A stretch of 64,000 bases of DNA from positions 24,840,501 to 24,904,500 of the forward strand of contig NC_090295.1 of NCBI RefSeq assembly GCF_037392515.1, given 5' to 3'. The stretch is from Haliotis asinina (lineage: Eukaryota > Mollusca > Gastropoda > Lepetellida > Haliotidae). Positions 3,701 to 6,700 of this stretch are shown here, in pieces. A model generated the notes under the pieces. The model searched no databases and was not told the origin of the DNA. It saw only the letters and a program-made list of their open reading frames with translations. Each line of letters opens with the position of its first letter. Position 1 is the stretch's first letter. The position numbers and the translations under genes were made by a program.

Positions 3701-6700
3701 ATTATATTGTGATATTAAATCTTCAAGTCATTGTCAGATAAATGTTTTGTGCCTGCAAGTATCAAACACAGGACATATATTGCACAAGATTGCTAAGTGG
3801 TGACCATGGTGATGTGGGTTGTGTTTTGGTGAGTTGTTTTGTTTTGAAGCTGGAAACTTAGCTGTCACACATTTCCACTCCGGTTTCGAAGAAATAGAAA
3901 TTCATGGTGTAAGATAAACATACACTTCATTATAAAATGTCCAGTATTTGGTCCTTAGCACATTTTGAGTACCATAAGAAAGTCTGGTATGTCTTGAGTT
4001 ATCTGTCCATTATGACATATGAGTGTCACAGTGTTAAATATATGTCACATGTTTAACCATGTTTGCACCAAGAAGCAACCAGGCAGTGCTATGTGAGAAC
4101 ACAATGTAATATGACATATTGCTGACACCCTACTTAGAAAAGTCCTTGTCAAGTGTCCCATTACACATAACTTGTATTATCAAATGAAGTAGAAGCATCT
4201 TGTTATTTTCCCTGGTATGAGGCAAATCATTCTGTATTTTATCATAGAAACAGTGGACCTAGCATTTTAAAAAAGCAGTCATTACAGAGCTGTGACCATC
4301 AGTGGACTCAATTTGGAAGACTTCATGTAGCACTTAGTGACTTACCTTCAGCATGTTTTGTGTTAAGAATAGTTTATGAGTGTTAAATTAATTTGTGGAG
4401 GTTGCGGCTGGTGGGGGTGGGAGGGTGTATTTGGAGTGTATTGAACATGTTCATTAGTGATTGCCACATCACACAGTATTTCTGTATGTATTTCACTACA
4501 TGTCAGTTGGACATATTTAGGTCATGATATTCAGTAATTATAGTTTGGCTCAGGCCAGAGTAAACTCTGGGAATAAACTGTCCTAGGTCAAACTATACAC
4601 TGTGTATAAAGCAGCCTAGGCTAGACTATGCCCATCCTCGATATCTCCACTATACTCTGGATGCATCTACGGGTTGGCCCGATAATTTTATTACCTCCAT
4701 TTGCTCTCTCCGCATTCTAACAGTAACCAGTCAGCAGAGTCACCGTTACAACCACTCTTGCCAGTTTCAACAAAGACAGAGGTGGCAGTTATGAAAGTTT
4801 GTTCGCAGTGCAATTCAGATTTGGGGGAAATCATACATACAAATTGACAGGTCCAAAACTTTAAAAACATATATACAAGAACTTCTTTTACCTCTCTCAA
4901 TGGGCACCCGTGGCGAGCCACCTCCTCGTGGTGGGTGCTGGGTAACGCCAAGAGCTCGCCGACATCCCCGTAGTGGACCCGGGAGGATATTTGGTCCACC
5001 AACCCGTTTGCCGTGGGTTGCAGCCCTGTGTCGGCGGAGGAGGGGATCCTGGTGGTTGAGAGCAATAGGAGCTTGCAACCGTGTTCCTGTTGCTCAATAC
5101 ACCACTTCGGCCCTGACTTCGCCTAGACGGGTGGTCGAATAGGCCCGGTTCGACCAATCGGCTGGTCATGCCAAGCCCTGTGCATGGGGCATTATTATAT
5201 TTATCAATGCACATATATCATTTGGAATCGTTGTAAATTTGGACTTGACTATATAATCTAAAACATTTTGAATTTGAAGTATGTTGTTCTGTAATTTGCC
5301 TAGAGTCCTATGCCAGAAGGCGGTGGCTCATGGGCCAATCTGGTAGAATTATTAATCTCTTAATTCTTCTGCTGGAGTATATCATCCGGGTATCCTTGGT
5401 GCTGCAAGCTGGAGGCCCGCTTGCTTTAGCATTGTCCTTGTGATACTCCATGGTGGGTGGGGAGCTCGGATGATGAATCATATGACACCAATCATGGCTT
5501 ATGAAATACCCCCCAAAAAAACCAAACGTCCACTTGAAATTGATCCCGTTGATACTTCTCATAGACCGTCTCTATCGATTGAGTATTGGCCACGTTTCCT
5601 CGTTATTGAGACTCCGGACAAGACACCATTGAAGTTGAACCCTTTCGCAGTATCTAAGGGCATTCAAGGTATTGCTGGGGATGTCAAGAACATTAGACGC
5701 TTGCGTTCGGGTGCATTACTAATAGAGTGTGGCAAGAAACAGCAGACAACCAATCTGATGAACATTGAATCTTTTGTGGGCATTCCGGTCACGGTCTCTG
5801 CTCACAAGACCTTGAACACAAGTAAAGGTATCGTCAGAGATCGTGATCGGTTGTTTGCTGACATGTCCGAGCTTGATATAGCATGCGAAATGAAGGATCA
5901 AGGTGTGCTGTATGTGAAGCGCTTTTCCACCCGAAAAAACAATGAAACAATCCAAACAAATACCTATCTGTTTTCTTTTTCATTGCCAAATGCTCCCAAA
6001 TCAGTAAAGGCGGGTTACTGCAATATCCAAGTTGAAACCTACATCCCCAACCCGCTCAGGTGTTTTAAATGTCAGAAATATGGACACGGTGTATCTACCT
6101 GCACATTGTCTGTTGTGTGTGCTCACTGTGGTGAGAAGACACACACAACAGAAGATTGTGACAGTGACTTAAAAAAATGCACTAACTGCTCTGGCGACCA
6201 TTCATCTTCGTCAAAACAGTGTCCAATATGGAAAGAGCAAATGGCGATTAACAAAATAAAGTTCACCCAAAATATCTCTTTTTCTGAGGCAAAGAAACTG
6301 GTGAAGAGATCTGACCTTCTAGAAAGTTATGCTACAGTAGCAAAATCATCATCTGAATCCAACTCTAAAATAACAAAATCATCCACAGGATGCCAAACTA
6401 CCTTGACTTGGGTCAGTTCCGACTCCCCACAGGTTTTATACCCTGCTATATCATCCCAGACTGAGGAATCACTTCCTACTACATCAAAGTCCTCTGATCA
6501 TAAGTCATCTTCACAGTCACGCTCTGAGTCTCATTCAACAGCTGATAGACAACAAATTGTTAAAACTAAACCCAAACCTAAGTCTGATGCTTCAAAGCAA
6601 CAAAGTGGCAGAGCTCCTAAGGGGTCACAAAATAAAATTCAATTGTTTAATAAATATGGGTCTCTTGAAGATATGGACGTTTCTGAAAACGTCCATTCTA

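Follow-up and report, generated by a model that had tools for sequence, protein, structure and literature searches.

Why do two diverged copies of a LINE ORF1 share a block of sequence without a single change, and is the hairpin that this block can form the reason for it? The question was raised by the window, the whole 64,000-nt stretch of Haliotis asinina DNA analyzed here, which comes from a source genome of 1.14 Gb in 159 contigs. The list of open reading frames places an intact two-ORF LINE, copy A, at approximately 5440-10454 of the window, and self-comparison of the window revealed a second ORF1 copy. These features are as follows:

5473-6768, forward strand: ORF1 of the intact copy A, with CCHC-type zinc knuckles (ORF list, with the frame from 5440; direct motif reading; protein alignment, n = 10).
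6807-10454, forward strand: ORF2, encoding endonuclease, reverse transcriptase, and RNase H (Pfam PF14529/PF03372, PF00078, and PF00075).
34187-35403, forward strand: second ORF1 copy (family B), decayed, with stop codons and frame damage (window self-comparison).

The ORF2 domains were assigned from Pfam matches to an APE-like endonuclease (PF14529, 4.3e-21; PF03372, 2.3e-13), a reverse transcriptase (PF00078, 4.2e-37), and RNase H (PF00075, 7.9e-11). Two knuckles of the form C-x2-C-x4-H-x4-C were read directly in ORF1, at 6061-6102 and 6118-6159; their assignment is motif-based, the only Pfam match being to zf-CCHC_5 with an E value of 4.2, below the cut-off. Together, the ORF2 domains and the gag-like CCHC ORF1 suggest that the element is an I-type non-LTR retrotransposon (APE-RT-RNase H). 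The solved structures nearest to ORF2 by sequence are LINE-1 ORF2p chains, a match that does not give a clade placement, and the AlphaFold model of ORF1p (mean pLDDT 44.4, with the best 10-residue blocks at 70-80 in the N-terminal part) was too poor to be used in the search for an RRM. Elsewhere in the window, a dispersed repeat of approximately 270 bp is found in both orientations with 82-88% identity (32425-32703, 35699-35953, 43534-43775, and 48816-49088), and tandem arrays, in which shifted copies are approximately 79-90% identical by self-comparison, occupy 22852-26253, 45496-46107, and 53685-56331. An open frame on the reverse strand at 46560-48071 (503 aa) carries the motif VLIVGAGAAG near its start, from which we take it to resemble an FAD-binding oxidoreductase.

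The block shared by the two ORF1 copies and the parts of its predicted fold are located as follows:

6100-6158, forward strand: block identical to 34803-34861 and synonymously constrained in the tested lineage sets (alignment, codon comparisons).
34803-34861, forward strand: identical block in the decayed copy B (alignment).
6109-6152, forward strand: hairpin (folding, recoding tests, stem scan).
6109-6121 with 6140-6152, forward strand: outer stem of 13 bp (folding).
6122-6126 with 6131-6135, forward strand: inner stem of 5 bp (folding).
6127-6130, forward strand: UGUG loop (folding).
6136-6139, forward strand: AAGA bulge on the 3' side (folding).

A first-pass annotation, made from the letters of the window, had described an unchanged block of 58 nt around 6101-6158 within ORF1 sequence roughly 70-80% identical by eye. 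The block is indeed unchanged, its exact extent being 59 nt (6100-6158 against 34803-34861), and the estimate for the flanks agrees with alignment of the whole ORF1 pair, which gave 69.75% identity over 1253 aligned columns. At this overall identity, approximately 2e-7 runs of at least 59 nt would be expected (hand calculation). The inner stem, the TGTG loop, and the AAGA bulge were also as first described, while the outer stem is 13 bp long rather than 11. The block encodes the second-knuckle region of ORF1p (19 residues), and no Rfam match was found over it at E values up to 1.

Folding of positions 6090-6170 gave -33.8 kcal/mol (z -3.79), a value equaled by none of 200 dinucleotide shuffles. 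Synonymous recoding was then compared with the native fold in 17 sequences, with family B represented by copy L010 and not by the window's own B copy. None of 2000 recodings equaled the native fold for copy A, L010, and L045, and 6 to 20 of 2000 did so for L101, L085, L100, L119, L078, and L115; recodings as good were thus limited to at most 20 of 2000 in 9 of the 17 sequences. The other eight ranged from 39 to 500, with 39/2000 for L128, 51/2000 for L114, and unremarkable folding (137 to 500 of 2000) for L110, L107, L089, L095, L123, and L070. When the recoding test was scanned along copy A, 4 of 323 windows had a lower z-score than the hairpin window. It is important to note that strong folding in copy A does not by itself count as evidence, because the segment at 5773-5832 folds strongly as well (z -5.7), yet positions 5770-5829 show no synonymous excess across lineages (0.418).

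We then turned to other copies in the source genome. The 42-nt core of the block was found at 2523 genome places with up to three mismatches (reversed control, 0), compared with 620 and 238 places for two neighboring 42-mers of copy A. Such counts blend family size with conservation and were set against these two control 42-mers only; they agree with the lineage analysis of synonymous constraint presented below. Copies were collected in several ways. A set of 38 loci is biased by construction, its queries having been the hairpin core and an 81-base sequence that spans it; another 30 loci were retrieved as matches to the B copy (1217 bases), which includes the block. To avoid this bias, sampling relied on the first-knuckle motif alone, in three sets of 20 places that were hand-picked from the first matches listed so as to span different motif strings, a few places of the third set being picked as repeats of the L114 lineage. 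A second knuckle of the block kind, in gapless alignment, was present in 8/20, 15/20, and 14/20 of these places, the remainder being other LINE lineages or indel-bearing copies. For a further 20 places, a variant 5' arm was the sole selection criterion. When 113 copies were clustered on their flanks, 18 clusters resulted, with identities between clusters mostly of 0.55-0.83. One copy, L106 (C4:6326036-6326825), has a chimeric upstream flank in which the first knuckle is absent and other sequence adjoins the block. Outside the source genome, an IMG/VR search with an exact 27-mer returned no matches, and a contig search matched a single contig, NZ_MPRK01000159.1 (L129), with an ORF1 40% identical and a different second knuckle. 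This LINE lies in the assembly of a bacterial symbiont (the Solemya elarraichensis gill symbiont) and is probably host contamination.

Among 11 lineages that had not been selected by the hairpin, codons for the same amino acid were identical in the block at a rate of 0.742, where amino-acid-specific rates predict 0.481. This excess of 0.260 compares with a maximum of 0.046 among 115 other windows. In a set of 12 lineages that includes some hairpin-selected rows, codon identity in the block was 81%, whereas 205 other overlapping 20-codon windows had a mean of 46% and a maximum of 60%. Between clades I and II, it was 0.770 against 0.467 expected. The effect was weaker in five deeper lineages (0.671 against 0.533 expected, with the largest excess elsewhere at 0.105). 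Free variation of family copies at synonymous sites, which the annotation had named as an observation that would speak against an RNA element, was therefore not seen in the block among lineages of the source genome. Local synonymous constraint, as predicted by an RNA element, is well supported.

The block also codes for a stretch that ranks among the most conserved in ORF1p, and protein constraint combined with codon preference on the zinc knuckle might be thought to keep it unchanged. However, codon identity in the crown sets lies 0.26-0.34 above the amino-acid-specific expectation, and the first knuckle, an internal control that is likewise well conserved as protein, has freely varying codons (identical in 311 of 665 comparisons, 0.468). 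On the basis of the block codon excess and of this contrast, we rejected this explanation as sufficient, and we consider it highly improbable; the annotation, too, had held that protein constraint alone does not explain the identity. An overlapping second gene is also unlikely: in seven sequences, no other frame was open through all 160 codons tested, whereas each has one antisense frame that stays open for 45-101 codons around the block. We also set aside programmed frameshifting, as no slippery run was seen by eye just upstream of the stem.

The level at which the constraint acts was examined with the variants of 30 family-B copies, from which L009 (copy B itself) and L040 (hairpin-selected) were dropped. 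Singletons were evenly distributed over the three codon positions (68, 75, and 79), as in dead copies, and 13 fell in the block against 17.0 expected. Shared variants, which are inherited, had a third-position bias (12, 20, and 45), and only one was in the block against 6.1 expected, lower than in all 130 other windows. With CpG sites excluded, the inherited variants were 1 against 5.6 expected, a value equally low in 15% of 121 other windows. This contrast between mutation and inheritance comes from one family and from small counts. No protection of dead copies is visible and inherited variants are scarce; the constraint is thus seen where elements replicate, and selection on replicating elements seems to be responsible.

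This pattern speaks against three alternatives: conversion among genomic copies, a cold spot for mutation, and host use of old copies. Gene conversion, the other option offered by the annotation, or recombination could have distributed one block among the lineages. Segment exchange may indeed occur in this family: identity to copy A is 93% at the ORF2 end L153 but approximately 72% in the ORF1 flank of L078, which by distance is presumed to be part of the same copy. L153 (C1:9246880-9247380) and L078 seem to reflect an exchange of ORF2 segments between lineages, or they are two abutting copies. However, family-B singletons accumulate in the block at a near-neutral rate, the flank tree groups the clade II blocks as a single clade, and lineages that share a block variant are related. 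Conversion among genomic copies was thus rejected as a sufficient account on the basis of the singletons, and we regard a single block spread by conversion or recombination as very unlikely.

Whether the stem itself is selected is a separate matter, and the support for it is weaker than that for synonymous constraint. The main change in the stem is located as follows:

6115-6117, forward strand: 5' side of three pairs switched together in clade II (GTG to ACA; lineage comparison).
6144-6146, forward strand: 3' side of those three pairs (CAC to TGT; lineage comparison).

In clade II (type II), the arms GTTACATGTG and CACATGTAAC replace GTTGTGTGTG and CACACACAAC, so that three adjacent pairs are changed on both sides. 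In the 20 places chosen by the 5' arm only, 18 had CATGTAAC on the 3' side and two had it with one mismatch. The modal blocks of copy A (clade I) and L101 (clade II) differ at eight positions, six of which form the three compensated pairs. Random placement gave at least three compensated pairs in 8 of 200,000 draws; this rose to 480 of 200,000 when all changes were forced into the stem and to 0.9% when two 3-nt clusters were placed at random. As type II is one clade, the switch counts as a single event. One of these three pairs, 6117-6144, is A-U also in all six L114-lineage copies and in L142, and G-C in A, B, and L045, both codons being synonymous; L142 is the sister of L045 with 99% support, and the position of L114 in the tree is uncertain.

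Of the 13 outer positions, 11-13 are paired in the 16 crown representatives, which were chosen one per lineage; more breaks are present in more decayed sister copies such as L069, L112, and L120. Only 7-10 of the 13 outer pairs are formed in the six deeper lineages counted, and in family L070, mismatches at 6117-6144 and 6120-6141 are present in 3/3 copies, with a third mismatch in one. A covariation analysis of the kind proposed in the annotation did not bear out the stem: under a tree-aware, R-scape-like null applied to 63 copies, no stem pair was significant (best E about 6). On a 45-tip tree, 52 changes broke pairs and 17 restored them, against 6.6 expected, some of the latter being root-dependent; there was no excess of double compensations (1 against 1.5 expected), and A-C mismatches were not rarer than G-U pairs (5 against 3 distinct). 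In shuffle controls that ignore relatedness, the covariation score and the number of cells paired were never reached (0/500), whereas the number of pairs changed on both sides was not exceptional (266/500 and 314/500). Stem changes without compensation, which the annotation had said would argue against its proposal, thus occur as breaks in several lineages, while the three-pair switch is compensated. What stands of that proposal is a conserved element, as seen from the local synonymous constraint; a strictly conserved hairpin does not, given the uncompensated breaks.

These observations bear on two further explanations. The block could be a nucleotide element read as linear sequence, in RNA or DNA (such as a binding site for a protein, or a processing site), with the hairpin as a by-product of complementary Cys, His, Val, and Thr codons. 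Consistent with this, third-base identity was lower at stem positions (375/548, 0.684) than at unpaired ones (325/396, 0.821), and deep lineages with poor stems largely retain ACATGTGCTCACTG and are still constrained. A by-product would not be expected to surpass all 2000 recodings of the same peptide in energy, as the hairpin does in both A and L010, nor to keep its pairing through the three-pair switch, and we regard linear recognition as rather unlikely. Alternatively, template switching between the arms, carried out by a host polymerase or by the reverse transcriptase of the element, could have perfected the inverted repeats, leaving a hairpin that is not selected. The available text of the respective papers describes this mechanism for RNA genes (PMC8794818) and for yeast coding genes (PMC8604942). 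The multi-base complementary changes fit it and may stem from opposite arms in clades I and II, the backbone of the tree being weakly supported, and the coding sequence of copy A contains three perfect stems with lengths of at least 12 bp, against a mean of 0.02 in synonymous-codon permutations. Synonymous change in the loop and flanks, the more conserved parts, would not be slowed by such events, and template switching as the whole explanation appears quite unlikely to us. The complementary nature of the knuckle codons (TGT and GTG versus ACA and CAC) may nevertheless be the origin of such hairpins, and template switching may be the source of arm changes of several bases at once; neither explains the fixed loop and flanks.

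The stem scan of copy A also identified two structures near the end of ORF2:

10281-10352, forward strand: hairpin of the ORF2 C-terminus, with a perfect outer stem of 13 bp (10281/10340) and a nested stem GTCAAGCA/TGCTTGAC, over a 14-residue C-terminal Cys/His segment (stem scan).
10116-10178, forward strand: perfect inverted repeat of 16 bp, 10116-10131/10163-10178 (stem scan).

Four coding stems of at least 10 bp are present in copy A, a number reached in 0 of 150 synonymous-codon permutations. A 42-mer of the 10281-10352 hairpin was found at 3332 genome places and one over the left part of the 10116-10178 repeat at 2483, compared with 835 for one neighbor. Of six further loci fetched for the ORF2 end, L150 and L151 lay off the element; the other four were read and assigned by distance, hence presumptively, to the L089, L078, L075, and L045 copies. 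They keep the 10281 stem except for one G-U pair (L153) and the loss of the outermost pair (L155); in the 16-bp stem, L152 shows a single compensated pair together with one A-C break, and L155 an uncompensated change. Synonymous identity in the 10281 hairpin (0.88 against 0.79 in five sequences) was not significant (permutation 0.10). Rfam gave sub-threshold matches to mir-4818 (28.3 bits; 10099-10196, reverse strand) and MIR5284 (21.3 bits; 10270-10362, forward strand), for which the gathering scores are 92 and 93; these are perhaps chance matches between long stems. A miRNA reading was set aside, as the block has no Rfam match and the ORF2 matches are far below the gathering scores.

The hairpins at 6109-6152 and 10281-10352 share a common design, with a long stem, a 4-nt bulge on the 3' side, and a short loop, and both overlie codons of Cys/His zinc motifs. 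It is conceivable, though we think it doubtful, that recognition hairpins in the coding regions, one in ORF1 and two at the end of ORF2, together allow the zinc-knuckle proteins encoded there to recognize the element's full-length RNA and package it. If true, this would give a LINE a retrovirus-like packaging signal made of multiple sites.

With a little better than even confidence, we favor a cis-acting RNA element as the explanation: the block, within the coding sequence for ORF1 of an APE-RT-RNase H LINE, would most likely act as a stem-loop. Purifying selection on the replicating element would keep the block, the RNA stem-loop would be what is selected, and a protein or the ribosome might read it. 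The most plausible reader would be the element's own ORF1p knuckles or ORF2p, picking out and assembling with their own transcript. Judged from its sequence, the block is probably an RNA signal that aids the element's own copying.

Several known systems offer points of comparison. RNA viruses carry cis-acting RNA structures inside coding sequences, including packaging signals in gag, and influenza NP is reportedly one example of such a structure. The likeness lies in a stem-loop that underlies coding sequence and is synonymously constrained, the coding segment here being that of a zinc knuckle; the present element, however, is not a virus, and its function is predicted. Among LINEs, the stringent elements ZfL2-1 and ZfL2-2 have a stem-loop in the 3' tail that is recognized by their own ORF2 protein, according to the available part of PMC4176376. 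Both cases involve a hairpin in LINE RNA, but theirs is at the 3' tail, whereas the present one lies within the ORF1 coding sequence and is known from sequence. Perfect inverted repeats in conserved protein-coding stretches are also described, in the accessible text of PMC6649704, for mitochondrial genes of Nematomorpha, where coding palindromes reach 284 bp; those found here measure 13-16 bp and belong to a retrotransposon. The gastropod non-LTR elements Nimbus and Ingi (I superfamily) likewise have two ORFs, according to the available portion of PMC11203168, and kinship of the present element with them is suggested by its APE, RT, and RNase H only; the word "hairpin" does not occur in the main text of that paper. 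Jockey-like ORF1p combines an RRM with CCHC knuckles that are thought to act in RNA binding (available text of PMC3905857). The knuckles are the shared feature, the RRM being a feature of the Jockey side that is not established in the present ORF1p. In the literature covered, which did not extend to preprints and most subscription papers, there was no report of a conserved hairpin in a LINE ORF1 among the matches listed.

To our knowledge, the way in which the protein of a LINE locates its RNA has been worked out for only a minority of LINEs, and the recognition hairpins that we know of are located at RNA ends. A selected element inside ORF1 would provide a defined 44-nt target for mutagenesis. 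Within the family itself, dead copies that decay neutrally can be compared with replicating lineages under constraint. Old repeat families of this kind make it possible, even for a single short block, to separate selection on the element from mutation in the host genome.
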